From Saccharopolyspora rosea (lineage in GTDB: Bacteria; Actinomycetota; Actinomycetes; Mycobacteriales; Pseudonocardiaceae): a DNA stretch of 64,000 nucleotides. The position numbers and the translations under genes were made by a program. The stretch spans positions 6,200,001 through 6,264,000 of the forward strand of contig NZ_CP102826.1 of NCBI RefSeq assembly GCF_025643595.1, given 5' to 3'. Of the stretch, positions 3,742-57,760 are shown piece by piece (within the stretch, counting starts at the first letter, position 1; every line of letters begins with the position of its first letter). The notes beneath the pieces were generated by a model. It did not search any database and was not told the DNA's origin. It saw only the letters and a list, made by a program, of their open reading frames with translations.

Positions 3742-5033
3742 GCCGTCACCTCCCGGATCGGCAACTGCGAGTGGAAGGCCATCTTCGCCTGCGCGTAGGT
3801 GTCGAGCAGCGCCTCGGTGGTGCGCTCCCACGAGAAGCGGTCGGCGTGCGCGGTGGTCGCCCCGGCCAGCCGGTCGCGCAGCGCCGGGTCCCGCACGATC
3901 GACGCGAGCGCGTCGGCCCACTGCCCGGTCTCGTGGCCGTGCACCAGCAGCCCCGACACGCCGTCGTCGACGGCCACCGGCAGACCGCCGACCGCCGCGG
4001 CCACCACCGGCGTGCCGCACGCCTGCGCCTCCAGCGCGACCAGCCCGAAGGACTCGTTGTAACTGGGCACCGCCACCGCGTCCGCCGCCCGGTACACCGC
4101 GGTCAACGCGTCACCGCCCTGCGGCGGGAGGAAGCGCACGACGTCGGTGATCCCCAGCCCGGCGGCCAGTTCCTGCAACGCGCGGGGACGTTCCAGTCCG
4201 CTGCCGGACGGCCCGCCGACGACCAGCACCACCAGCCGCTCGCGCAGCTCGGGATGGCGGGCGAGCAGTTCCGCGGTCGCCCGCAGCAGCACGTCCGGGG
4301 CCTTCAACGGCTGGATCCGCCCGACGAACGCCAGCACCACCGAGTCCGTCCGGAGCCCGAGCGACGCCCGCGCCCGCGCCCGGTCCCCGGGCGTGAACCG
4401 GTCCAGGTCGACACCGGGCGGGATGGTCGCCACCGCTTCCGGGTCGGCCCCGTAGCGCTCGACGAGCTCGCGCGCCTCGAACTCGGTGTTGGCCACCAGC
4501 CGGTCGGCCTGGGCCACCACCTGCTCCTCACCGATGACGCGGACGCGCGGTTCCGGCGCGTCGCCTTCGGCCAGCGCGGCGTTCTTGACCTTGGCGAGCG
4601 TGTGGGCGGTGTGCACCAGCGGAACCCCCCAGCGCTCCCGCGCCAACCACCCGACCTGCCCGGACAGCCAGTAGTGCGAGTGCACGATGTCGTAGTGGCC
4701 GGGCTCGTGCCGCGCCTCGACCCGCAGCGCTCCGGCGGAGAACGCGCACAGCTGCGACGGCAGGTCGTTCTTGTCGAGCCCCTCGAACGGCCCGGCGACG
4801 ACGTTGCGCACGATCACACCGGGCGCCAGCTCGGCGACCGGGGGGATGTCCGACGAGGTCGCGCGGGTGAAGATCTCCACTTCGGTGCCGAACTCGGCCA
4901 GCCGCCTGGCGGTCTGCGCGATGTAGACGTTCATCCCGCCGGCGTCACCGGTGCCGGGCTGTTCCAGCGGGGAGGTGTGCAACGAGAAGACGGCGGCGCG
5001 TCGCGGCCGCATCCGTAGTGTTCTGCGTGTCAT
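3738..5033 (-). CDS. mshA: D-inositol-3-phosphate glycosyltransferase (mycothiol step 1)
   Basis: MshA joins UDP-GlcNAc to 1L-myo-inositol-1-phosphate, the first committed step of mycothiol synthesis. The GT-B fold begins with [25 protein letters not shown], whose GGMNVY loop binds substrate. The C-terminal half has [25 protein letters not shown], containing the E-x7-E motif of GT4 enzymes. The frame is open to 5111. I start at the ATG at 5033 ([12 protein letters not shown]); ATG 5012 is also possible, and none has a strong ribosome site. The gene overlaps the downstream YbjN gene by four bases. Confidence 0.94.
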
Positions 5034-5289
5034 CTGCTGCCCATCGCAAGCGGTCCGGCGGCCCGAGCCTTTCGGGGCCGTCATCCCCGACAGCGAGCGG
5101 CGCGGAAACATTCCCGTTGCGGCGCGGTCACCGTCGAGGCGCCGCCGACGCTACCGCTCGCCCCCGGCCTGACCGGCGACTCCGAGCGCAGCAGGTGGTG
5201 CTACTCACACAGTGGTCAACAGCGGTGCCGACCGCGTCCCCGAGCACGCGGTCGGCACCACCACGCGGAACGAGTCCGCCGACCGGGCG

Positions 5290-6489
5290 CTAGGCAGCGG
5301 ACTTCTTGGTCCACTGGTCCCAGTTCAGCAGCCAGTCGTAGACGTCGTAGCCCGGGTCCATCGTGCTGGCCGAGCCGGTGACCTCGACCGGATCGCCGAT
5401 CAGGGCGCTGTCGTAGTACGCCTTGGCGTTCGCGGCGCTGAGGTTGATGCAGCCGTGCGAGTTGTTGACCTTGCCCAACGCCCAGGCGTTCTCCTGGTTC
5501 TCGTGGATGAACTCGCCGTGGTTGGAGATCCGCGCCGCCCACGTCTTGCGGACGTTGCGGTACCCGTAGCGCGGGTTGTCCATGATCTCCACGGGGTCCT
5601 TCTGCATCACGATGTAGGTCCCGTTGGGGGTGTTGCGCCCCGGGTCGTACTCCTCGCCGTAGCTGGCGGGGTAGGTGGCGACCTGCTTGCCGTCGCGTTC
5701 CACGACCAGCTGGTGCGTGCGCACGTCGGCCTTGACGACCTGCGCGCGTCCGATGTTGAACTCGGTGGTCAGGTCCGCCAGTCCGTACGCGCCGTCGCCG
5801 TAGGGCACGCCGTAGAGGTCGGCGCTGACCCGGACGTGGGTGTGCGCGGGCCAGTAGTTCTTCGGCCGCCAGTCGACCTGCTCGTCCGACAGCCACGCCC
5901 ACGCGCCCTCGACCGGGACGGACGTGTCGACCTTGAGCGCCCGCTGCACGGCGGCCTTGTCCTTGACCGGCTCGTCGAACTTGACGCTGATCGGCATGGC
6001 GATGCCGACCTCGGCGTTGTCGATGGGGTTGACCGTGGCGCGCACGGTCTGGTCCGGCTTGAGGGTGCTGAACTGCCCGCGCACCGGAACGCTCTTGCCG
6101 TCCTGCCCGGTGATCCGGCCGGACCAGGTGTAGGTCCCGCCGTAGCCGAGCGGCGTGCTGGCGTGCCAGGTCGTCCGGTCCGGGCTGAGCTCACCGGCGA
6201 CCTGCTTGCCGTCGGCGTTGGTCAACGCGATCTCGTCGAACCGGCCGCGCTGGGCGGTGGCCCGGATGGGGGCGGTCGGGTTGACGTCGCCGGCGCCGTT
6301 GCCCGGTTCCAGGGCGAGCCCGGCCACCGGGCCGGCGGGTTTTCCGGGGTCGGTGCCCGACGAGCCGCAGCCCGACAACAGCAGCACTACGGTCAACGCT
6401 CCCACCAGTGCGGTCCACCCCGGCCGCTGCCTCGAACCCCTCACCACTGTCTGACCTCGATCCCCTCGAAAAAACTGAACCGTATTCAT
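5290..6489 (-). CDS. L,D-transpeptidase lipoprotein with Ig-like domains
   Basis: This 399-residue envelope enzyme would form 3-3 cross-links in peptidoglycan. The N-terminus is a lipoprotein signal (hydrophobic ALVGALTVVLLLSG followed by lipobox LLSGC). Two immunoglobulin-like domains follow at roughly 45-250, as in mycobacterial LdtB, with the YkuD catalytic domain at about 255-385. The active site SHGCINLS places the nucleophile at Cys347, with the substrate loop HGEFIHENQENAW ahead of it. The start is well separated from the divergent short-chain dehydrogenase gene. Family assignment is secure; the exact paralogue is not. Confidence 0.93.
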   Translation of the reverse strand: MNTVQFFRGDRGQTVVRGSRQRPGWTALVGALTVVLLLSGCGSSGTDPGKPAGPVAGLALEPGNGAGDVNPTAPIRATAQRGRFDEIALTNADGKQVAGELSPDRTTWHASTPLGYGGTYTWSGRITGQDGKSVPVRGQFSTLKPDQTVRATVNPIDNAEVGIAMPISVKFDEPVKDKAAVQRALKVDTSVPVEGAWAWLSDEQVDWRPKNYWPAHTHVRVSADLYGVPYGDGAYGLADLTTEFNIGRAQVVKADVRTHQLVVERDGKQVATYPASYGEEYDPGRNTPNGTYIVMQKDPVEIMDNPRYGYRNVRKTWAARISNHGEFIHENQENAWALGKVNNSHGCINLSAANAKAYYDSALIGDPVEVTGSASTMDPGYDVYDWLLNWDQWTKKSAA

Positions 6490-6634
6490 AGACGTGCGAA
6501 GAACCGAAAAGATGTCCCGTCTGTCCAGTGTGTCGCGTCACACCACTCGGCCGACCGCGGGCCGCCCCGCCACCGGCACGCACCGGTACTGACAAAGTGA
6601 GGGACGAGAGCCGACTTCGCGAGAGGAGCCGAAC

Positions 6635-7417
6635 ATGGACCAGCCGCGCGCCGACGCCACCCGACGCAACGGCGACGGCCCCGGAGCGGGCCGCACCGCC
6701 GTGGTCACCGGGGCGAGCTCCGGCATCGGTGCGGCGACCGCGCGACGGCTCGCGGCCGAGGGGTTCCACGTGGTCGTGGGCGCACGCCGCACCGACCGGC
6801 TCACCGAGCTCGCGGCCGAAACCGGGGCCACCGCACTGCCGTTGGACGTCACCGAGCCGGACTCGGTGGACGCGTTCGTCGAGCGGATCCCGGAATGCCA
6901 CGTCCTGGTGAACAACGCGGGCGGCGCGAAGGGACTGGCCAAGGTCGTCGACGCGGTCGAGGACGACTGGCGCTGGATGTGGGAGACGAACGTGCTGGGC
7001 ACGTTGCGGCTCACCAAATCGCTGCTGCCCAAGCTGATCGCCTCCGGTGACGGGCACCTGGTCACGGTGACCTCGGTGGCGGCGTCGAACGTCTACGACA
7101 ACGGTTCCGGCTACACCTCGGCCAAGCACGCGCAGGCGGCGCTGCACCGGACGCTGCGCGGCGAACACCTCGGCGATCCGGTGCGGTTCACCGAGATCGC
7201 GCCGGGCCTGGTGGAAACCGAGTTCTCCGAGGTCCGCTTCGGCGGCGACACGGATCGGGCCGCCGCCGTCTACCACGGCTACACGCCGTTGACCAGTGAC
7301 GACGTCGCCGACGTCATCGCCTTCGCGGTGACCCGACCGTCCCATGTGGACCTCGACTTCATCGAGCTCAAACCACGCGACCAGGCGTCGCCCACCAGGG
7401 TTCACCGCGCCGAGTAG
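6635..7417 (+). CDS. SDR family NAD(P)-dependent oxidoreductase
   Basis: The product is a classical short-chain dehydrogenase of 260 residues. It has the cofactor motif TGASSGIG, an arginine-rich turn after strand 2 (GARRTDRL) that favours NADP, the LDVTEPDSVD region, NNAG, and catalytic Tyr and Lys in SGYTSAKHAQ. It belongs to the YdfG-like group acting on 3-hydroxy acids or serine, but the substrate is not readable from sequence. A ribosome site (GAGAGGAG) precedes the ATG. It is divergent from the L,D-transpeptidase. Confidence 0.92.
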   Translation: MDQPRADATRRNGDGPGAGRTAVVTGASSGIGAATARRLAAEGFHVVVGARRTDRLTELAAETGATALPLDVTEPDSVDAFVERIPECHVLVNNAGGAKGLAKVVDAVEDDWRWMWETNVLGTLRLTKSLLPKLIASGDGHLVTVTSVAASNVYDNGSGYTSAKHAQAALHRTLRGEHLGDPVRFTEIAPGLVETEFSEVRFGGDTDRAAAVYHGYTPLTSDDVADVIAFAVTRPSHVDLDFIELKPRDQASPTRVHRAE

Positions 7418-7476
7418 CGCAGCACCGCGCGTCGACCGGCTCGTCCGCACCGAGGGCTGGGATCTGTTTCACAAGC

Positions 7477-7575
7477 GGCGCGCAGCGCCTCCGTGGGGGG
7501 CGGTGGTCGGGTGACGGGCGGGCACCGCGGCGCGCAGCGCCTCCGTGGGGGGCGGTGGTCGGGTGACGGGCGGGC
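7477..7575. repeat. Family A repeat, two identical 47-bp copies
   Basis: Two identical 47-bp units at 7477-7523 and 7529-7575 are separated by five bases, giving a 52-bp period. The unit begins GGCGCGCAGCGCCTCCGT and ends GGTGGTCGGGTGACGGGC plus GGGC; its start contains the small inverted repeat GGCGC-GCA-GCGCC. Two further diverged copies lie 44 kb away at 51778-51825 and 51899-51946. The pair sits between convergent genes, so it may also affect transcription ends. Confidence 0.85.
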
Positions 7576-7582
7576 GGGCCGG

Positions 7583-8590
7583 TCACACGCGGATCCGCTG
7601 CGGTTCGGCGCACAGCTCGACGTCGAGTTCGGTGAGCACGTCGCCGATGGGGCTGGCGAAACCGACCGCGCCGTCGCGGGCACCGGCCACGTGCAGCCCG
7701 ACCACGCGACCGTCCGCGTCGAGCACGGCCGCACCGGCGTCCCCGGGACCGCAGAACCGCACATCGGACGCGGCGATGCGGATCTGCTCGCGCAGCACCC
7801 GCACGCCCAGGGCCTCCCCGTGGTCGATCCGCAGCGTCGCGTCGGTCGAGGTGACCACTCCCGAGGTCAACCCGGTGCCGAATCCGGACTTGTGCACCCG
7901 CTCACCGGGATAGGCGGTGCCGGCGCCGGTCACCGGACCGAAACCGTCGACCAGGCAACTCGCTTCCAGTCCGGTGGCGATGGTGACGGCCGCCGCGTCC
8001 ACCCGCCCGGACAGCGCGGCACGCGCCAGATCGGCCTGCACCCGCTCCTGACCGGGCTCGGCCATCCGGTCACCGACCGACCACGCGTCGTCCAGGCAGG
8101 CCACGTCGAACGTGGTGAGCCCCATCGTGACCACGGCGGGCGCGTTGCCGGTGACCAGCATTCCGAGCGTGCCCACGCGCCGGTACTCGCCCGCCACCGG
8201 AACATCCGGCGGCGCGAGCCGAACCCCGCGGCACGGGGAGATCCCGGAACCACCGCACACCATCCCGGAGCGGTCGCCGCGGCGCTGCCGGGGAGGCAGC
8301 GGATCCCGCGTGTCGCAGTGGATGTGCTGCAGGACCGGGTGCTCCTCGACGACGTCGGTCGGGATGCCTAAGACGTCGTCGGGAATCCGCACCTCGGACG
8401 GCAGATCGTCGGACGGTCGCTTCCGGACGACCGAGACGACGATGACTTGCTGGCCGGTCCGCCGTCCGGCACGGTGTTTTTCACCGATGTCGACCCCGGT
8501 GACCCCGGGCAGATCGAGCAGTTGGTCCTCGACCGCGCGCTTGATCGGGCGGATGACCGCTCGATCCCTCAGTTCCCTGATGCTCAGCAT
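7583..8590 (-). CDS. Trypsin-like-fold protein with lost catalytic residues
   Basis: The 335-residue product resembles bacterial chymotrypsin-fold peptidases of the type with a long N-terminal region (LPGVTGVDIGEKH) and a C-terminal GDSG motif. Here the motif reads GPGDAGAAVLDADGRVVGLHVAG, so the nucleophile position is Ala285. The usual VLTNNH catalytic-His segment reads VVTMGLTTFD, without histidine. It therefore keeps the fold but is unlikely to cleave peptides; a binding or scaffold role is possible. The ATG at 8590 has a good ribosome site (GGAGGG), better than the upstream GTG. There is no signal peptide. Confidence 0.75.
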   Translation of the reverse strand: MLSIRELRDRAVIRPIKRAVEDQLLDLPGVTGVDIGEKHRAGRRTGQQVIVVSVVRKRPSDDLPSEVRIPDDVLGIPTDVVEEHPVLQHIHCDTRDPLPPRQRRGDRSGMVCGGSGISPCRGVRLAPPDVPVAGEYRRVGTLGMLVTGNAPAVVTMGLTTFDVACLDDAWSVGDRMAEPGQERVQADLARAALSGRVDAAAVTIATGLEASCLVDGFGPVTGAGTAYPGERVHKSGFGTGLTSGVVTSTDATLRIDHGEALGVRVLREQIRIAASDVRFCGPGDAGAAVLDADGRVVGLHVAGARDGAVGFASPIGDVLTELDVELCAEPQRIRV

Positions 8591-19342: not shown

Positions 19343-21988
19343 TCATCCGTCGGCCTCACCTCCGTACCCGAGGCAGACGAAACCCGACTCGCCGTGCGCG
19401 GCCTGGGCCTCGGCGAGCGCGGTCGCAGGCGCTCGGCCCTCGCGCAGCGCGGTGTGCAGCGCGAGCATCACGCGCGCGGTGCGTTCGTCCGGCACCGGCA
19501 CGACGCTGGCGATCACGGTCGCTGTTCCCCGCCCCAGGAGCGTGGCGGCCAGGCCGCTGAGCTGGTCACCGCGGTGCACCGCCGACCGGCCGACCTCGCA
19601 CGCGGACAGCACCACCGTTGTCGGGCCGCGGTGCAGGCGGTCCAGGTCGTAGGTGTACAACGGCCCGTCCGCGAGGTCCAGGCAGGACAACAGCGGCTGG
19701 TCGTCCCGGAACCGGCCGTGCGCAGCGATGTGCGCCGTCGCCGCTCCGTCCACAGTGTCCAGAACGCGTTCCGCTGTCGCGTTCGGACCGGTCAGCAGCC
19801 GCCCGCCGGCCATGTCGTGCAGGGACGCGACCTCGTCCTCGGCGTGCTCCAGACCGGGTCCGGAGATCCACACCTGCCGATCGCCCACCGACTCGCGCGC
19901 GTCCCGCGCACCCCGCAGCCAGCACCGCAGCGACGGGCTCACGGTGACCCCGCGACCTCGGCACGCAGGGAGTTCCGCCCACGGCAGCACGTGCAGGCGC
20001 CCGGTCGGCACCACGACGAGCGGACGCCCCTCCGCCAACGCCGGGAGAACCGGCCGGAGCAGCTGTTCCTGCAACACCTCGGCGGCACTGCCCGCTGCCT
20101 GGGCGAACGCCGGTACCGCGCGTGGCGAGGCGCTCTGCGCTCGACGCGCCAGGAAATGCCGCAGCCGCCCCGCCTGCGCCTCGGCGGTCGACTCCGGACC
20201 GAGCGCGTGCAACCGCGCCCTTCCCTCCACAATGGACACCGCGAGCAGTCGTCCGCCTTGGGAGAACAGGCTCAGCAGCACGGCATCGCCGAGCTCGGCG
20301 GCCACGTCGTCGATCCCCCACGCCGCGCGAAGTCCGCTTGTGCCGCCGCGGACCAGCATCGCGCGGTGCCGCACCCGGTCTTCCAGCTCGGCCACCGCCG
20401 CCACGGCGTCCGCCGGGCTCCGGCTCTCCCGCATCGCGAGCACCGCCGAGCGCAGCTCGGCGAGCGACTCCCGGAGTCCGGGCTCCGACGGTGGTCGCAG
20501 AGCCCGCCGGTGCAACGCGCTGGCCCGCGCCCGCTCGCTCCAACGCAGCACCAACCTCGGGTCGCCGGTCCGCAGCGCGGCCCGGACCGCCGTCTCGGCA
20601 AGCTCGTCGGCCAGGCCGAACGCGGACACGCGCAGTTCGAAGGCGGCCATGGTGGCCGCATGGCACTCCACCGCCTGCAATCCACCCCGGCACGCCTCGA
20701 ACAGGCGGGCCAGGTCGCCGTCCTGCTCGGCGAGCAGGGCATCGGCCAGCCACCCGAGGGCCCGCTGGTGCGCCGAAACCCGCGCATCCCCCTTCGACTC
20801 CGCGGCCCGGGCCAGCAGCTTCCGGGCTGTCGCGGCCAGCCCGGCGCGTTGCGCACACCGGCCGGCCGTCAACCGCAGCTCAGCCGCGGGCCCGATCCAG
20901 CCGTAACCCTCGCACGTCGCCGCTGTCCGCCGCGCGGCGGACAGGGAGTGCCGGGAACACTGGCCCGCCTTCAACCTCGCCTGCCACGCGGCGGCCGATG
21001 CCAGCGCCGCCCACGCGGGACGGTGCTGCGCGCGGAACAGCCGCCGAGCCGTGGTCGCGTCCTCCAGGGCGGCGGCCGTGTCGCCGTCCCGGAGAGCGCA
21101 TCCGGCCGCGGCGAGCCGCGTCTCCGCGAGCCGCCCGTCCCTGCCGTGCGCGGCCAGCAGCGACGCCGCCCGGTCCAGCACCTCGCGCGCTTCGCGGTTG
21201 AGCCCGGCGGCGGCCATCGCCTCCGCCCGGTCGACCAGGACCTCCGGATTGGACTGCGGATCGAGTCCCGCTGCCGCCGCCTGCTCGAACAGCCGCAGCG
21301 CCTTCGGCAGATCCCCGGCCAGGAACGCCACGCAGCCCCGGTTGTGCCGACAGGCGGCCGCGCGTCCGGTCCGCCGGTCGCCGGCGAACGTCCGCTCCGC
21401 CGCGGCGAGGTCCGCTTCGGCCTCCGCCGGGGAGTTCGTGTACATGTGCGCGAGGCCGCGTCCGAGCAGCGCGTTCGCCACCCACCGGCGGTCGTCGCCG
21501 ACGGTGAGTCGGCGCAACGCCTCGTCGAGCTCGGTGATCGCGTCGCGGTACTGGCCTGCCCGGCACCGCAGCAGACCGCGCAGGCAGCCCGCTCGCGCGC
21601 GGTCGGGTTCGGGCAGGTTCGCCTCCGCCGCGACGAGGTGCTCCCAGCTCGTGCTGGTCTCGCCCCGGTCCAGCTCGACCCACGCGAGCGTCAGCCGGAG
21701 CTGGGCCTCCCGCTGCGGAAACCCGGACCGCCGGGCCGCACCGATACCCAGCCGGGCATGGCGCTTGGCGTCGCGCATCCGGCCGCGCTCCACCGCGGCC
21801 AGCGCGGCGAGATGCCTGGCCAGAACCCGCAGTTCCGCGCCGGAACGCGGATCGGCGAGCCATTCAGCCGCCTGCCGCGCCGCGGATTCCGGCGCCGCGC
21901 TGGCGTGGTCGAGCCACCGCAGCGCGGTGTCCACGAGCGACTCCTCCGGCGGGCGCACCGCCACCCCGGCGCTCAACAGACCAGCCAA
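19343..21988 (-). CDS. TPR-CHAT caspase-like protease
   Basis: The 881-residue cytoplasmic protein has about 480 residues of TPR-like helical repeats (for example ANALLGRGLAHMYTNSPAEAEADLAAAE, NRGCVAFLAGDLPKALRLFEQA). A C-terminal CHAT domain spans about 570-881. The catalytic dyad is intact: His757 in TAHIAAHGRF and Cys797 in VVLSACEVGRS, 40 residues apart as expected. CHAT proteases of this layout act in signalling and cell-death or defence circuits; Csx29 of type III-E CRISPR is the best-known TPR-CHAT. The gene overlaps its upstream neighbour by 16 bp and ends a sigma-factor operon. Its trigger and substrate are unknown. A later GTG near 21960 is an alternative start. Confidence 0.93.
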   Translation of the reverse strand: MAGLLSAGVAVRPPEESLVDTALRWLDHASAAPESAARQAAEWLADPRSGAELRVLARHLAALAAVERGRMRDAKRHARLGIGAARRSGFPQREAQLRLTLAWVELDRGETSTSWEHLVAAEANLPEPDRARAGCLRGLLRCRAGQYRDAITELDEALRRLTVGDDRRWVANALLGRGLAHMYTNSPAEAEADLAAAERTFAGDRRTGRAAACRHNRGCVAFLAGDLPKALRLFEQAAAAGLDPQSNPEVLVDRAEAMAAAGLNREAREVLDRAASLLAAHGRDGRLAETRLAAAGCALRDGDTAAALEDATTARRLFRAQHRPAWAALASAAAWQARLKAGQCSRHSLSAARRTAATCEGYGWIGPAAELRLTAGRCAQRAGLAATARKLLARAAESKGDARVSAHQRALGWLADALLAEQDGDLARLFEACRGGLQAVECHAATMAAFELRVSAFGLADELAETAVRAALRTGDPRLVLRWSERARASALHRRALRPPSEPGLRESLAELRSAVLAMRESRSPADAVAAVAELEDRVRHRAMLVRGGTSGLRAAWGIDDVAAELGDAVLLSLFSQGGRLLAVSIVEGRARLHALGPESTAEAQAGRLRHFLARRAQSASPRAVPAFAQAAGSAAEVLQEQLLRPVLPALAEGRPLVVVPTGRLHVLPWAELPACRGRGVTVSPSLRCWLRGARDARESVGDRQVWISGPGLEHAEDEVASLHDMAGGRLLTGPNATAERVLDTVDGAATAHIAAHGRFRDDQPLLSCLDLADGPLYTYDLDRLHRGPTTVVLSACEVGRSAVHRGDQLSGLAATLLGRGTATVIASVVPVPDERTARVMLALHTALREGRAPATALAEAQAAHGESGFVCLGYGGEADG

Positions 21989-22446
21989 TCCGCGATGGCC
22001 GGCGCCGACCGCAGCGGCCGGTACACCACGCTGAGCGGACCGCGCGGCACGTCCTCCACGCGGAACGCCCCGTGCGCGTCGAGCTCACCGGCGCTGTGCC
22101 CGGCCGAATGCCGCAGCACGACGTCACCGGTGGGCGGGGTGTGCCCGGCGCGGTTGACGACCATGCCGGAGGCCCGGCACATGCCCTGGACCGTGGGAAC
22201 CAGGTCCATCTCCAGGATCCGGCCCGGCATCAGGAACGTCAGCACCCGAGGTTCCGGTCCCGCCGCCGACCGCACCGTCGTGGTCGCCTCGGCCGAGTCA
22301 CCGACCAGTTCGAGAACGGCCTGGTCGGACACGTCCCAGCGCCGCCCGACCGCCGAATAGGCCGCGTCGAGCACGTGCTCCGGCACCGGATCGCAGTTCT
22401 GGAACAGGTCCCGCAAGCCGTGCAGCTCGGAAGGCAGCCAGCTCAT
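21973..22446 (-). CDS. 157-aa protein of sigma/CHAT operon, unknown function
   Basis: I do not recognise a named family. The first 50 residues are helical and carry DPVPEHVLDAAYSAVGRRWD followed by VSDQAVLELVGDS, a pattern that looks like a short sigma-binding or adaptor segment. The second half is beta-rich (LDAHGAFRVEDVPRGPLSVVYRPL), suggesting a small Ig- or carboxypeptidase-regulatory-like sandwich. There is no signal peptide or membrane segment. Its ATG overlaps the sigma factor stop (ATGA) and its 3' end overlaps the CHAT gene, so all three are coupled. An anti-sigma factor or CHAT substrate is the working guess, not shown. Confidence 0.85.
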   Translation of the reverse strand: MSWLPSELHGLRDLFQNCDPVPEHVLDAAYSAVGRRWDVSDQAVLELVGDSAEATTTVRSAAGPEPRVLTFLMPGRILEMDLVPTVQGMCRASGMVVNRAGHTPPTGDVVLRHSAGHSAGELDAHGAFRVEDVPRGPLSVVYRPLRSAPAIADWLVC

Positions 22447-23027
22447 CCCGCCGCCTCCTCCGGGACCTCGGTGGCGAGCAGCTGCTTGCGCAGCTCCGCC
22501 AGGCACCGCCCCCGCTTGGGGCCGATGCTGCCGCGCGGCATGCCCAGGGCCTGGCTCACCTGCGCGTAGCTGGCTTCGGGCGCCACCGACAGCACCCGCA
22601 ACAACTGCTGGCAACTCTGGGAGAGCCGCGAGAACGCCTGCCACAGCCGGGAGTTCGCCATCGAGCGGAGCACCTTCCGCTCCGGATCGTCGCCGTGGCC
22701 GGGGCGGTCCAGCAGGGGCGAGCCCAGCCCCGCGGGCGTCTCCCGGCGCCGCGCCTTGGTCAACCGGATCGACTCCCGGCGGGCCGTCGTGACCAACCAC
22801 GACGTGAGCGATTCCGGCTCGCGCAACCGGTCCAGGTTCTCCGCCAGCAGCAACCACGTCGCCTGGCAGACGTCCTCGGCGTCGGCGCTGTTCGCGGTGA
22901 ACGCCCTGGAAACGCCCCACACCACGGACTCGTTGCGGTCGACCAGCTCGCGCCAGGCCAACTGGTCACCGTCCGCGGCACGACGCACCAGAACCGCCGT
23001 ACCGCCTGCCGCCGCGACCTCATGCAT
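22443..23027 (-). CDS. ECF-like RNA polymerase sigma factor
   Basis: The 194-residue product has sigma region 2 (WRELVDRNESVVWGVSRAFTANSADAEDVCQATWLLLAENLDRL) ending in SLTSWLVTTARRESIRLTKARRRE. Region 4 contains a helix-turn-helix (SYAQVSQALGMPRGSIGPKRGRCLAELRK). Regions 1 and 3 are absent, as in ECF factors. The ATG at 23027 has GGGAGG eight bases upstream; the GTG three codons earlier overlaps that site and is unlikely. It is followed, with 4-bp overlap, by the 157-residue gene and then TPR-CHAT. No zinc-binding anti-sigma gene is adjacent. Confidence 0.94.
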   Translation of the reverse strand: MHEVAAAGGTAVLVRRAADGDQLAWRELVDRNESVVWGVSRAFTANSADAEDVCQATWLLLAENLDRLREPESLTSWLVTTARRESIRLTKARRRETPAGLGSPLLDRPGHGDDPERKVLRSMANSRLWQAFSRLSQSCQQLLRVLSVAPEASYAQVSQALGMPRGSIGPKRGRCLAELRKQLLATEVPEEAAG

Positions 23028-23064
23028 GTTCCGCACCTCCCTGCACCCGGGTCGGCTTTTCCGG

Positions 23065-23100
23065 GTTTAAGAGGAACGGGAAGCCGCGAAAGATTCACCT
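23065..23100 (-). promoter_or_regulatory. Possible autoregulated promoter of the sigma operon
   Basis: Reading toward the sigma gene, AGGTGAATCT (23100-23091) and CTCTTAAAC (23073-23065) are separated by 17 bp. They do not resemble a housekeeping promoter and fit the -35/-10 spacing of ECF promoters. They lie in the 81-bp gap after the subtilisin gene. Autoregulation is an inference. Confidence 0.35.
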
Positions 23101-23108
23101 CACGCCGA

Positions 23109-24248
23109 TTACCGCTCGAACGGGTAACGCCGGCACGCCGCGGCGCGCGCCTCCCGGAGGTCGCCGGTCTTGTGCAGAGCGCTCGCCGCCTCGGCCGCGA
23201 CCTGCGGCGCGGCGAACGAAGTACCGCTCCAGCGCGCGAATCCGTAGGTCCGCCGGCCGCCGGGAGCCATCCGCACGTAGCTGCTCGTCACGTCCACCCC
23301 CGGTGCCGCCGCGTCGACCCAGTCCCCGCGGTTCGAGAACGGCGCGAGCGCTCCGCCGCTCCCGGTCGCAGCCACCGCCACCACGGACGACAGCGCGGCG
23401 GGCCAGAACGGGCGGGACCGCGCGTGGTTGCCCGCCGCCGCGACGACCGCGGTCTGCGACCAGTGCTCCAACTCGTCCTCCAGGACCGGCGGGCAGGTGT
23501 CGTCAGCCGTGTGGCACCCGGAGGACAACACCGCGATCCCGATGCGCTCGCCCCGGGCTGCGGCCTCCCGGCGCAGCGCGCGCAGCCCCGACGCGACCGT
23601 GATGTCGTCGGTGAACCCGAGCGACGACAGCACGCGACGCGGTCGGACGACGACACCGGGAGCGTGCTGCAACAGCACCCCGCTGACGAACGTCCCGTGA
23701 CCCGCCTGCCGGTCCTGGCCGGAGTCGTCGTCGGCGTCGAGCACTTCGGCGACCGGTTCGAACCAGGAACGCGACCGGAACCACGGGTGCGGATCGCAAC
23801 CGGTGTCGAGCACCCCGGCCACCACGGGCGGGTCCCAGCTCGGCGCGGGCGGTTCCGGAACCGGCGCGGCAACGTGCGGTTCGGCCCCGATGCCGAACAT
23901 GATCGGCGTTCCGAACATCACCGGAGAGCCGACGTGGACGTGGTTGGCGGCGACCCCGGTCGCGCGCGCCCCGGCCTCCCGCGCGATGTCGATGCAGCGG
24001 TCCCGCTCGCGTTCACGCAGCCGCACGCGCGCCACCAGCAGGTCCTCCTCGTGCTGCACGGAGTCGACCCACCTGCGGAACCGGTCCAGGACCGGGTCCA
24101 GGGCCGGCGCAGTGGTGATCAGCTCGCCGCGGCGGACCAGGCACTCGCGGTCACCGCCCGGATCGTGCAGCAGGAAATCGTGGCCGTAGGACGCCCAGAA
24201 CTGTTGCAGTTCACCGAAACTGAAGTGATTGCCCCATTCGCGATCCAC
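23109..24248 (-). CDS. Cytoplasmic S8 (subtilisin-like) serine peptidase
   Basis: The catalytic triad is complete: Asp148 in GVLDTGCDP, His184 in AGHGTFVSG and Ser344 in WSGTSFAAPQ, with the oxyanion Asn in VVAAAGNHARS. An N-terminal region of about 140 residues (HFSFGELQQFWASYGHDFLL onward) has no signal peptide or propeptide cleavage pattern, so the enzyme should remain in the cytoplasm. I place the start at GTG 24248; GTG 24257 is equally possible. The gene runs in the same direction as the sigma-CHAT genes, 81 bp upstream, and probably belongs to the same system. Confidence 0.9.
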   Translation of the reverse strand: MDREWGNHFSFGELQQFWASYGHDFLLHDPGGDRECLVRRGELITTAPALDPVLDRFRRWVDSVQHEEDLLVARVRLRERERDRCIDIAREAGARATGVAANHVHVGSPVMFGTPIMFGIGAEPHVAAPVPEPPAPSWDPPVVAGVLDTGCDPHPWFRSRSWFEPVAEVLDADDDSGQDRQAGHGTFVSGVLLQHAPGVVVRPRRVLSSLGFTDDITVASGLRALRREAAARGERIGIAVLSSGCHTADDTCPPVLEDELEHWSQTAVVAAAGNHARSRPFWPAALSSVVAVAATGSGGALAPFSNRGDWVDAAAPGVDVTSSYVRMAPGGRRTYGFARWSGTSFAAPQVAAEAASALHKTGDLREARAAACRRYPFER

Positions 24249-27859: not shown

Positions 27860-27933
27860 TGGCCAGGGGCGGGGTCGAACCGCCGACCTTCCGCTTTTCA
27901 GGCGGACGCTCGTACCAACTGAGCTACCTGGCC
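27860..27933 (-). tRNA. tRNA-Phe (GAA)
   Basis: The minus strand gives acceptor GGCCAGG/CCTGGCC with discriminator A, D-arm AGCTCAGTTGGTACGAGC, anticodon loop CTGAAAA (GAA) and T-loop TTCGACC. All stems pair. The 3' CCA is not encoded. It is the last gene of the Glu-Asp-Phe array. Confidence 0.95.
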
Positions 27934-27961
27934 GTTAGCGTCCGGCTCGTGCCGTTCGCCT

Positions 27962-28038
27962 TGGCGACCCAGACGGGACTCGAACCCGCGACCTCCGCCG
28001 TGACAGGGCGGCGCGCTAACCAACTGCGCCACTGGGCC
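27962..28038 (-). tRNA. tRNA-Asp (GTC)
   Basis: The minus strand gives acceptor GGCCCAG/CTGGGTC, anticodon loop CTGTCAC (GTC), T-loop TTCGAGT and discriminator G followed by an encoded CCA. The cloverleaf is complete. It lies in the middle of the Glu-Asp-Phe array. Confidence 0.95.
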
Positions 28039-28063
28039 ATACTTGCGATCTTCAGTTGTCGCG

Positions 28064-28136
28064 TACCCCCAACGGGATTCGAACCCGCGCTACCGCCTTG
28101 AAAGGGCGGCGTCCTAGGCCGCTAGACGATGGGGGC
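28064..28136 (-). tRNA. tRNA-Glu (TTC)
   Basis: The minus strand gives acceptor GCCCCCA/TGGGGGT (one G-U pair), anticodon loop CTTTCAA (TTC) and T-loop TTCGAAT. The discriminator is A and no CCA is encoded. It is the first gene of the three-tRNA array. Confidence 0.95.
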
Positions 28137-51584: not shown

Positions 51585-51639
51585 AAGCGGCGGAGGCTTT
51601 CTCTTTCGGCGAGCGGTCTCGCAGCCGGCACCGCCACGC
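51585..51639 (+). repeat. Family B repeat, copy 1
   Basis: AAGCGGCGGAGGCTTTCTCT followed by TTCGGCGAGCGGTCTCGC and AGCCGGCACCGCCACG closely matches the copy at 51702-51757. It lies just outside the MITE-like element. Confidence 0.75.
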
Positions 51640-51701
51640 GAAAGGACCCCAAGGCGACCTTTCAGAGCCTGTCTTTGAGCTTGGTTCCGACGGGTCGTGG
51701 T

Positions 51702-51757
51702 AAGCGGCGGAGCCGCTTTCTCTTTCGGTGAGTGGTCTCGCCGCTGGCACCGCCGCG
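51702..51757 (+). repeat. Family B repeat, copy 2
   Basis: AAGCGGCGGAGCCGCTTTCT then CTTTCGGTGAGTGGTCTCGC and CGCTGGCACCGCCGCG. Its first half, AAGCGGCGGAGCCGCTT, is itself an inverted repeat. It lies inside the MITE-like element. Confidence 0.75.
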
Positions 51758-56320: not shown

Positions 56321-57760
56321 TCAGCAGCAGTTGGTGCTGTTCATGTGGCCGAGGCTCGAACCGTAGCCGCCCGCGCCGCGGTCCCCGCCAGTGCCGCCGC
56401 CGCTCTTGCCGCTGCTGCCGCCGCAGGGCGAACATCCTCCCTGCTGGCCCGTGCTGCCGTTGGAGTTCTCGTTCCCGCCGGTGTTGGGCGGGGTCTGGTT
56501 CCCGCCGCCGCTGTTGGAGTTCTGGTTCCCGGTGCCGTTGCCCTGGTTCCCGCCAGTGCTGTTGGAATCCTGACTCCCACCCTGGTTGGCGCCGTTGGGC
56601 GAGTTCTGGTTGCCACTGCCGCCGTTGGAGTTCTGGTTCCCGGAGGTGCCGTTCTGGTTCCCACCAGTGCCGTTGGAATACTGGTTCCCACCCGTGTCGG
56701 CGCCGTTGGGCGAGTTCTGGTTCCCACCGCCGCTGGAGTTCTGATTGCCGTTGGTGTCGCTGTTGTTGGGCGGGTTCGGGTTCCCGTTGTCGCCCGGTCC
56801 CGGGCCGGGTACCGGCGGGGCTTGCACGGCGGGCGGGTTCGGCGGCGGCGCGGCGGGGGCGTTGAGGGCGTCCCACACGTGGGAGGCGAACGTCGCGGTG
56901 CCCGCCGCGAGCAGGATCGTGATCAGGACTTCCCAGCCTCCGATCAAGCGGGCCACCCAGCCGACGGCGGTGGCCACGCCCCGGACGCAGCTCCCGAGCA
57001 ATCCCATCGTCCGGAGCATGACGTTGCCGCAGGTGACTTGGACGCTCGCCCACATGCCCGCCACGAGCCCGGCATCGGATGCGACCACGGGCTCCGCGGA
57101 GGTGGCGACGGGCTCGACGGCCACGACGGCGGGCTCTGCGGCGGTGGCGTCGGTCGCCGCGACGCTCTTGAGGTTGTCCGCCGCACCCGCCGCGGCGGGC
57201 TCGTCCGCAGCCGCACCCTGCACGGCGTCGGCACCCGCACCCGGCCGGTCCGGCGCCTGGGCAGGTGGCGGCGCCGTCACGTCATCGATGCCGGCGGGCC
57301 TCGCGCTGGGGATTCGGCGGTTCTGCTCGACGGAAGCCCACGCACCCCGCATCCACTTGGGATCGCTGCGGAGCTTGGCGTAGAACTCGGTATCCGCCGA
57401 AGAATACTTCTTCAGCGAACTCCAGTACTTCTCGTACGACAAGTCATCGCGGTACGGGTCGCCTTCCAAGCTGTTGTACTTGAGGAACCAGTCGCGCAGC
57501 TCGTCGACCCGAGCGTTCCAGGAGGCGGCAGGCTTGGCCTCCAGCGCCCGGAGCTCTTCCAGCGACTGCTCGGACGTCGAAACCCATTTTTGGAGGTCGT
57601 CCTTCTCCCACTGGTAGTACTCCGGTCCTTCCGGGTGGTTCTCGGGCGTCATCTGCTCGTGGAACGCTCGTTGGAACACCTTCCCGGCCTCCAGCCTCTG
57701 CAACTCCATGTTGATCGCGTTGTGCAGCGCCTGACCGAGCAGTTCCCCTTCGCTCGCCAT
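56321..57760 (-). CDS. Membrane protein with Asn/Gln-Gly repeats and Cys-rich end, unknown
   Basis: The 479-residue protein is unlike any family I know. Residues 1-130 are charged and helical (QRLEAGKVFQRAFHEQMTPE, WNARVDELRDWFLKYNSLEG). An Ala/Pro linker follows, then one or two hydrophobic segments (GSCVRGVATAVGWVARLIGG, WEVLITILLAAGTATFASHV). From about 320 on, short GNQNS-type repeats rich in Asn, Gln, Gly and Ser run for over 100 residues, ending in a Cys-containing tail (GGCSPCGGSSGKSGGG, HMNSTNCC). ATG at 57760 is preferred. The tail resembles prion-like or adhesive sequences. Confidence 0.82.
   Translation of the reverse strand: MASEGELLGQALHNAINMELQRLEAGKVFQRAFHEQMTPENHPEGPEYYQWEKDDLQKWVSTSEQSLEELRALEAKPAASWNARVDELRDWFLKYNSLEGDPYRDDLSYEKYWSSLKKYSSADTEFYAKLRSDPKWMRGAWASVEQNRRIPSARPAGIDDVTAPPPAQAPDRPGAGADAVQGAAADEPAAAGAADNLKSVAATDATAAEPAVVAVEPVATSAEPVVASDAGLVAGMWASVQVTCGNVMLRTMGLLGSCVRGVATAVGWVARLIGGWEVLITILLAAGTATFASHVWDALNAPAAPPPNPPAVQAPPVPGPGPGDNGNPNPPNNSDTNGNQNSSGGGNQNSPNGADTGGNQYSNGTGGNQNGTSGNQNSNGGSGNQNSPNGANQGGSQDSNSTGGNQGNGTGNQNSNSGGGNQTPPNTGGNENSNGSTGQQGGCSPCGGSSGKSGGGTGGDRGAGGYGSSLGHMNSTNCC

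Follow-up and report, generated by a model that had tools for sequence, protein, structure and literature searches.

Several bacterial gene sets have been described in which the activity of a sigma factor is tied to a protease. One is the type III-E CRISPR system Craspase, with its Csx29/Csx30/CASP-sigma set (PMC10028731). In CalpL/CalpT/CalpS, a set of type III CRISPR, a protease cuts a soluble anti-sigma factor that holds an ECF sigma factor (PMC11417357). From what is described in these two papers, both sets may be taken as precedents for a protease-released sigma factor. Gene neighbourhoods with an EACC2-caspase, an ECF sigma factor and TPRs have also been reported, and a transcriptional output was predicted for them (PMC8195603). 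Closest in gene content is the sigma factor group ECF54. As treated in PMC8999054, where Casas-Pastor 2021 and Huang 2015 are cited for it, ECF54 has a neighbourhood in which genes for subtilase, CHAT and 'carboxypeptidase' domains are conserved, with no canonical anti-sigma factor in that account, and it is placed among the sigma factors under proteolytic control without an anti-sigma factor.

The window analysed here is a stretch of 64,000 nt of Saccharopolyspora rosea (NZ_CP102826.1, positions 6,200,001 to 6,264,000), in which the locus occupies 19343..24248. The first-pass annotation had described a four-gene minus-strand cluster of an S8 peptidase, an ECF-like sigma factor, a 157-aa protein (here P3) and a TPR-CHAT protease, and a check of the ORFs and their translations confirmed all four in place. 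The features are as follows.

23109..24248, minus strand: S8 (subtilisin-family) peptidase, 379 aa, GTG start (PF00082, 2.4e-21)
23070..23097, minus strand: promoter-like element TGAATC-N18-CTCT immediately upstream of the sigma gene, conserved in close loci
22443..23027, minus strand: ECF-type sigma factor, 194 aa, regions 2 and 4 (TIGR02937, 2e-21; Sigma70_r2)
21973..22446, minus strand: P3, 157 aa, proposed sigma partner and CHAT substrate, sigma neighbour in most loci
22270..22272, minus strand: P3 Arg59 codon, proposed P1 residue or CHAT contact, associated with CHAT presence
19343..21988, minus strand: TPR-CHAT protease, 881 aa, TTG start, CHAT domain at about residues 635-863 (PF12770, 2.7e-32)
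19718..19720, minus strand: catalytic His757 codon of CHAT, conserved across aligned rows
19598..19600, minus strand: catalytic Cys797 codon of CHAT, conserved across aligned rows

The annotated overlap of 4 bp between the sigma and P3 ORFs holds, while that of 16 bp between P3 and CHAT is contingent on the TTG start chosen, as an alternative TTG four codons on gives 4 bp; conservation does not decide between the two because P3 is coded in the other frame there. In the sigma factor, TIGR02937 (sigma70-ECF, NCBIfam) covers residues 24-183, Pfam matches Sigma70_r2 at 1.3e-13, and the region-4 motif in the family alignment reads GSIGP-R-RCL. Pfam also finds TPRs beside the CHAT domain of the 881-aa protein. 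Both proteases keep their catalytic residues, as had been claimed: CHAT His757 and Cys797 are present in 44/44 rows, window included, and S8 Asp148/His184/Ser344 in 36/37, the remaining row being a truncated ORF. Likewise in line with the annotation, conservation of the S8 N-termini in an alignment of 19 rows, one of them the window's, sets in near the GTG start, and inspection by eye revealed no obvious signal peptide.

The four-gene arrangement recurs far beyond chance. The co-conservation check proposed with the annotation was strongly positive, both inside the class and in the wider phylum, whether loci were selected by P3 or by CHAT. Sigma directly precedes P3 in 39/40 and 34/40 distant loci of two P3-selected sets, and both genes accompany CHAT in 19/20 CHAT-selected loci; gene order and orientation vary among these loci. 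In pattern searches of genome contigs, the CHAT protein, with overly strict patterns, gave no relatives, and the P3 alignment gave 19 loci, all close. P3 keeps sigma company even where CHAT sits elsewhere or was not found, and it is a near-constant partner of sigma. The sigma-P3 pair, often with CHAT, is carried by many actinobacteria. Of the partners, the S8 peptidase has the loosest link to the set and is most often missing from the stretch: it is present at 18/19 named near loci and at 18/40, 19/40 and 8/20 distant ones. These occurrences, the intact triad and the finding that in eight family-22 genomes S8 and CHAT form a divergent pair apart from sigma-P3 would fit S8 as the protease that cuts P3, with a separate role for CHAT. 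Such a role for S8 is improbable given how often S8 is missing, and given genome G069, where no S8 match was found at 1e-5 yet CHAT is present and Arg59 of P3 is kept.

P3 consists of a conserved N-terminal DPxP part, a variable linker and a CarboxypepD_reg-like C-terminal part. The window P3 has no Pfam match. With E<=1 as the limit, 28/40 members of the family match CarboxypepD_reg (PF13620) weakly, 1.4e-5 being the best value and the window member not among them; no Pfam anti-sigma match was found for P3. Against PDB sequences, no solved chain falls below E 0.02, the best (0.021) being a NOMO beta-sandwich. Moreover, a profile of the 40 P3 proteins matched no Csx30-named chain at E<=10 among the solved chains, which presumably include one. 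P3 therefore appears, at the level of sequence comparison, to be no detectable relative of Csx30. The CHAT protein, on the other hand, distantly matches a chain named Csx29 (7y9x_B, 6.9e-4) and matches chains 8d9f, 8d9g and 7x8a, which we take to be Craspase entries, with E-values near 2e-6 across roughly 100 residues. The likeness to type III-E drawn in the first-pass annotation stands for the sigma factor and for the TPR-CHAT protein with its His/Cys dyad; homology of P3 to Csx30 is not supported.

One residue of the P3 linker follows the presence of CHAT. In the main alignment, site 59 is Arg in 107/107 rows of CHAT-bearing genomes and in 0/12 of CHAT-less ones, a contrast in which CHAT status changed independently no more than three times (sign test p = 0.25) and which leaves out G933 (590 contigs), where Arg59 is kept and no CHAT was found. 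Three other alignments place Arg59 in 106-107/107 CHAT-bearing rows, L247 being missed in one of them, and in 1/12 CHAT-less rows. The latter is L104, whose genome G034 has a partial CHAT-domain match (9e-23); its loss of Arg59 is unsure, so that independent losses number two or three. An alignment-free check found the motif [VAILTCM]R[SGATC] 7-16 residues before F71 in 104/107 CHAT-bearing P3s vs 0/12, and some Arg occurs in the stretch in 3/12 CHAT-less P3s (L101, L104, L236). Unlike Arg59, the other conserved P3 residues are mostly kept without CHAT. R67 is missing in 19 rows, of which 18 have CHAT in the stretch; its loss therefore does not follow that of CHAT. The conservation of Arg59 with CHAT is as would be expected if P3 were a CHAT substrate, and a cut site, a binding contact or a pseudosubstrate would all yield it. 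An argument for arginine specificity from the CHAT S1 pocket was considered and has been dropped.

The same pattern bears on where the proteases act. They may degrade sigma directly and keep its level low, P3 being an adaptor or scaffold, and the listing of ECF54 as proteolysis-controlled without an anti-sigma factor in PMC8999054 points that way. Against this, the residue that follows CHAT sits in P3; the scan covered P3 residues and is to that extent less than a full test. Direct degradation is considered unlikely. Slightly better placed, and still unlikely, is the explanation in which CHAT is the output: sigma would raise CHAT and P3, and P3 would be an inhibitor or pseudosubstrate with its Arg linker in the CHAT active site, possibly with feedback on sigma. 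The link of Arg59 to CHAT fits a pseudosubstrate equally, and the operon order sigma-P3-CHAT stands behind one autoregulation-like element for which no other recurrent target was seen in close loci or genus genomes. However, P3 stays beside sigma even in genomes that yielded no full-length CHAT of the family, which would not be expected of a pure CHAT inhibitor, and CHAT lies outside the fetched stretch in 21/107 CHAT-bearing rows, although only about 6 kb off in G402.

This element, TGAATC and CTCT with a spacer of 18, precedes sigma in 30/30 close loci, window included (29 exact, one with one mismatch), and is a putative autoregulated ECF promoter. The 22 genus genomes hold 46 exact matches, 21 at the sigma promoter and 25 elsewhere, vs 2 for the reversed pattern; as that pattern differs in composition, it tells little about the 25. 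When a regulon was sought in the own genome, 28 matches with at most one mismatch were found vs 22 for the reversed pattern, which is no clear excess. Farther away, the exact element was not found in distant loci L080-L131 or in the family-22 CHAT-S8 regions, it was not found in 5/10 g38 loci with one mismatch allowed, and the aligned family-22 upstream regions show no clear counterpart by eye. A single element common to the whole phylum is therefore not claimed.

The observed gene set, its linkage, the catalytic residues, the conserved element and the association of Arg59 with CHAT lead us to propose, tentatively and with a probability of about 0.47, a CRISPR-free protease-operated sigma switch, encoded in many actinobacterial chromosomes, in which sigma is held by P3 until CHAT acts near Arg59 of P3, whereupon sigma re-drives the operon. 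P3 would probably keep sigma inactive by binding it through the conserved N-terminal part. A signal would activate the TPR-CHAT protease, which would cut or engage the P3 linker around Arg59. Freed sigma would recognise TGAATC-N18-CTCT and transcribe the sigma-P3-CHAT operon, and this may yield more protease and amplify the response. The S8 peptidase would be an accessory or upstream protease. A bolder version is doubtful: a phylum-wide, CRISPR-independent 'bacterial caspase cascade' for transcription, in which a CHAT cut directly behind the one conserved arginine of P3, Arg59, releases sigma, and the one recurrent target of sigma in Saccharopolyspora and close genera is its own operon, giving a self-amplifying commitment at one arginine.

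In line with the first-pass annotation, no CRISPR-like, regularly spaced array was seen in the 64-kb window, and Pfam found no Cas protein among 10 flanking proteins. The phage-response role that it had also considered found no support. At 1e-5, tblastn with the window P3 matches none of 50,697 phage and 72,556 plasmid records. PADLOC-DB 2.0.0 assigns the four locus proteins to no system; sigma and P3 are unmatched, CHAT weakly matches BovA, S8 matches 'subtilase' (2e-9) and weakly IetS, and 21 CHAT proteins match BovA models only. That the locus is a mobile module against phages, related to type III-E but without CRISPR, has the analogy to Csx29/Csx30/CASP-sigma in its favour and is nevertheless very improbable, since these searches gave neither a phage or plasmid match nor a system, neighbours at annotated loci are ordinary chromosomal genes and no Csx30 relative was found.

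If the proposed switch is true, cleavage of a sigma inhibitor by CHAT, the logic of Craspase, would serve actinobacteria generally as a means of signalling. It would then not be special to CRISPR, and type III-E would appear as one user of such a part. The analysis names P3 as the candidate substrate, Arg59 as the residue, Cys797 as the enzyme position to mutate and TGAATC-N18-CTCT as the reporter element, and the control of ECF54-like sigma factors is therefore reducible to simple tests.

Among the known systems, the type III-E Craspase as described shares with the locus a TPR-CHAT protein, an ECF-like sigma factor and a candidate cut inhibitor, and differs in that the locus has no CRISPR array in the window, a 157-aa P3 without a firm solved-chain match and an extra S8 peptidase. 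With CalpL, the likeness lies in a protease and a soluble sigma-holding partner, roles proposed here for CHAT and P3; CalpL, however, is Lon-type, activated by cyclic tetra-adenylate and CRISPR-dependent in the account given, whereas the locus has a CHAT protease and no CRISPR array was seen in the window. The EACC2 neighbourhoods likewise tie a caspase-fold protease to an ECF sigma factor, but the caspase and partner domains reported are others, and no CHAT-P3 set is among them. A word search of PMC7159879 (Kaur 2020) found neither CHAT nor sigma-factor mentioned, and no experimental study of the S8/sigma/P3/CHAT set was recognised in the open-licence literature. ECF54 shares with the locus an ECF sigma factor (regions 2 and 4), a subtilase and CHAT; the carboxypeptidase-type match is weak and confined to family members, and the locus is grouped with ECF54 by its genetic context. 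Through that CarboxypepD_reg match, the ECF54 'carboxypeptidase' may be the P3 family. In the ECF54 account of PMC8999054, the proteases act on sigma and no partner protein is named, whereas P3 is proposed here. The gene neighbourhood is thus already in print for ECF54 and proteolysis already proposed there; the element and Arg59 results are new.

Four adjacent genes on the minus strand make up the gene set, and the positions, strand and protein names assigned to them by the first-pass annotation are borne out, with Pfam and NCBIfam concurring on the names.

Genes of the set in the window, as placed by the earlier reader
24248-23109, minus strand, S8 (subtilisin-family) peptidase
23027-22443, minus strand, ECF-type sigma factor
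22446-21973, minus strand, P3, protein of 157 aa
21988-19343, minus strand, TPR-CHAT protease (CHAT)

The catalytic residues were likewise rightly described as intact: all 44 CHAT rows, the window's among them, conserve His757/Cys797, and 36/37 S8 rows conserve the triad, the remaining row being truncated. CHAT and P3 overlap by 16 or 4 bp, depending on which of two possible CHAT start codons is taken. P3 itself has no firm match in Pfam and NCBIfam and a single match in its own genome (6.56 Mb, one contig). Elsewhere in the window lie three clustered tRNA genes (27860-28136, minus strand), two perfect 49-nt direct copies with starts 52 bases apart (7475-7575), and two 43-nt copies, 88% alike, with starts 119 bases apart (51596-51757).

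The gene set is real, widespread and linked, and its neighbourhood is already known in outline. Among the 30 top-ranked P3 loci from 297 genomes of the family (tblastn; the window's own included), sigma, P3 and CHAT occur together in all 30 and S8 in 29. P3 was detected in 76/297 family genomes (one query sequence, E<=1e-3), 50/394 class genomes (1e-3) and 44/396 phylum genomes (1e-5), in searches that score only a few candidates per genome. In two sets of 40 distant P3 loci, hand-picked from these hit lists, a sigma gene in the same orientation immediately precedes P3, no more than 400 bp away, in 39/40 and 34/40, counts that are unchanged with best domains only; it stands 409-433 bp upstream, beyond this limit, in L242-L244, and is absent beside P3 in L094, L210, L215 and L246. 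CHAT falls within the stretch in 24/40 and 22/40 of these loci, and S8 in 18/40 and 19/40. An independent linkage test used 20 hand-chosen CHAT loci from genomes without a P3 hit in the single-sequence family search; sigma and P3 are present in 19, the exception being L204, and S8 in 8. That P3 lies beside 19/20 CHAT genes of nominally negative genomes reflects the few candidates scored per genome. The co-conservation on which the earlier proposal depended is thus found. Moreover, gene order and strand differ between loci, so the linkage is more than an ancestral operon that has stayed intact; CHAT and S8 form a divergent pair apart from sigma-P3 in the eight family-22 genomes examined.

Several loci depart from the usual arrangement. 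P3 is directly preceded by an S8 peptidase at L094:4144-6000, a stretch that yields no match to sigma, and the P3-CHAT-S8 set occurs twice in tandem at L223:5749-16254, with a sigma match for only one. The 11-kb stretch of L204 holds CHAT and S8 (4170-7948), sigma and P3 matches both being absent, while at L211:7064-10596 the CHAT matches that precede sigma-P3 are divided among several ORFs, which may mean a gene that is broken or duplicated, or else errors in the sequence. An aminotransferase gene adjoins the locus in the window, L101 and L104; at its position L061, L064, L072 and L079 carry an unannotated gene of similar size on the same strand, and thymidine kinase adjoins the locus in L080 and L094.

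The working of the gene set is directly testable through residue-level and promoter evidence. The best reading is that P3 would restrain sigma, that a signal of unspecified nature would activate CHAT, which would then act on P3 at Arg59 (numbered as in the window's P3), and that sigma, once released, would drive sigma-P3-CHAT. The S8 peptidase would be accessory, because genome G069 keeps CHAT and Arg59 with no S8 match at 1e-5. The P3 alignment comprises 120 rows (119/120 loci, L204 lacking P3, and the second copy in L223), of which 108 carry Arg59; the 12 others all come from stretches without CHAT and S8. CHAT was then sought genome-wide, its status being known beforehand for 17 genomes and, apart from G117 and the window's own genome, predicted on record before the search for the others. 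Among genomes lacking Arg59, family CHAT has no match at 1e-5 in G117, G134 and G165, the search in G1034 is without match, and G177, G150, G097, G038, G072, G188 and G199 give TPR-type partial matches only; G034 lacks a full-length match but has a single partial one to the CHAT domain (9e-23, profile 696-851). Where Arg59 is kept and the stretch holds no CHAT, family CHAT is found elsewhere in 21/22 genomes (11/11 of known status and 10/11 predicted first; weakest best E 3e-51), with partial or split matches in G968, G976 and G836. The remaining genome, G933 (590 contigs), keeps Arg59 with CHAT not found and is omitted from the resulting count, in which Arg59 occurs in 107/107 rows with CHAT versus 0/12 without.

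The CHAT-less P3s keep most of the other conserved residues: P22, R67, G94, G126, F128 and G136 are present in 12/12, D41 in only 5/12 and P134 in 8/12. Three further alignments place Arg59 in 107, 106 and 107 of 107 rows with CHAT versus 1/12 without, the lone row being L104 of G034. Independently of the site alignment, [VAILTCM]R[SGATC] occurs 7-16 residues before F71 in 104/107 versus 0/12, and any Arg in 107/107 versus 3/12. In a FastTree phylogeny of 115 sigma rows (some branches long, including L104 and L245), CHAT status and Arg59 each change three times, together in 3/3 independent pairs (sign test p = 0.25); of the three, L104 is unsure. From these comparisons, a role of Arg59 in serving CHAT is well supported, and its being the CHAT cut site is no more than suggested. 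In the main rival reading the direction is turned round: CHAT would be the output, and P3 would inhibit it as a pseudosubstrate. That sigma-P3 survives without CHAT counts against this rival. In genus g38 (L100-L102, L230-L236), ten genomes without detected full-length family CHAT carry the sigma-P3 pair; Arg59 of their P3 is lost by alignment and the rest is mostly conserved, so the pair may function without the protease.

Immediately upstream of sigma, TGAATC-N18-CTCT is exact in 29/30 close loci from several genera (window included), with one mismatch in the thirtieth. Across the 19 named loci from a P3-alignment scan limited to close relatives (18 Saccharopolyspora and one Halopolyspora; 350,807 bases), a spacer of 18 accounts for 19 hits, against 1 in total for spacers 10-17 and 19-25. 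The 22 genus genomes contain 46 exact copies, 21 of them at the sigma promoter in 21 genomes; in the list of the other 25, contexts unread, four are identical within one genome and no recurrent second site is seen. The reversed pattern, a control differing in composition, has 2 hits. The pattern is consistent with autoregulation through an ECF promoter that, at the stringency used, has few if any further targets, and we infer that the sigma of this set reads the element. In the ten g38 loci it is exact in two, has one mismatch in three and is not found in five. Genome G000 has its sole other exact copy at G000:C1:516239-516266, with a one-mismatch copy 1.5 kb away at 517765.

Within P3, a conserved D-P-x-P marks the N-terminal part, which a variable-length linker separates from the C-terminal half (borders from sequence alignment). 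CarboxypepD_reg is matched by 28/40 members at E<=1 (best 1.4e-5), with no match for the window P3, and the P3 profile weakly matches a NOMO2 chain (E 0.021). A TTR-like beta-sandwich is therefore the probable fold of the C-terminal half, and what is listed next to ECF54 (ECF sigma group 54) as a 'carboxypeptidase' may be P3 rather than an enzyme. Nothing here supports the phage response that had been thought plausible: the gene set matches no PADLOC anti-phage system, the window P3 has no match at 1e-5 in the phages or plasmids searched, and neither P3 nor CHAT matches a PHROG.

The ECF54 neighbourhood is already published, and PMC8999054 offers a rival proposal in which proteolysis hits sigma itself; P3 as partner, Arg59 and the element were not found in open-licence literature. 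The earlier view that the same parts occur without CRISPR stands for the window, which holds no CRISPR-like array; seven imperfect 41-nt copies at 56454-56767 are irregularly spaced (21-84 bases) and not CRISPR-like. Since, additionally, no Csx30 relative was found and similarity to the Csx29-named chain is only distant, the set is not a Craspase member by the features tested; among solved CHAT chains, a profile comparison ranks 8rot_B nearest (E 2.4e-12). In its proposed mechanism, the gene set would nevertheless work like Craspase and CalpL/T/S, as these are described in PMC10028731 and PMC11417357, respectively.
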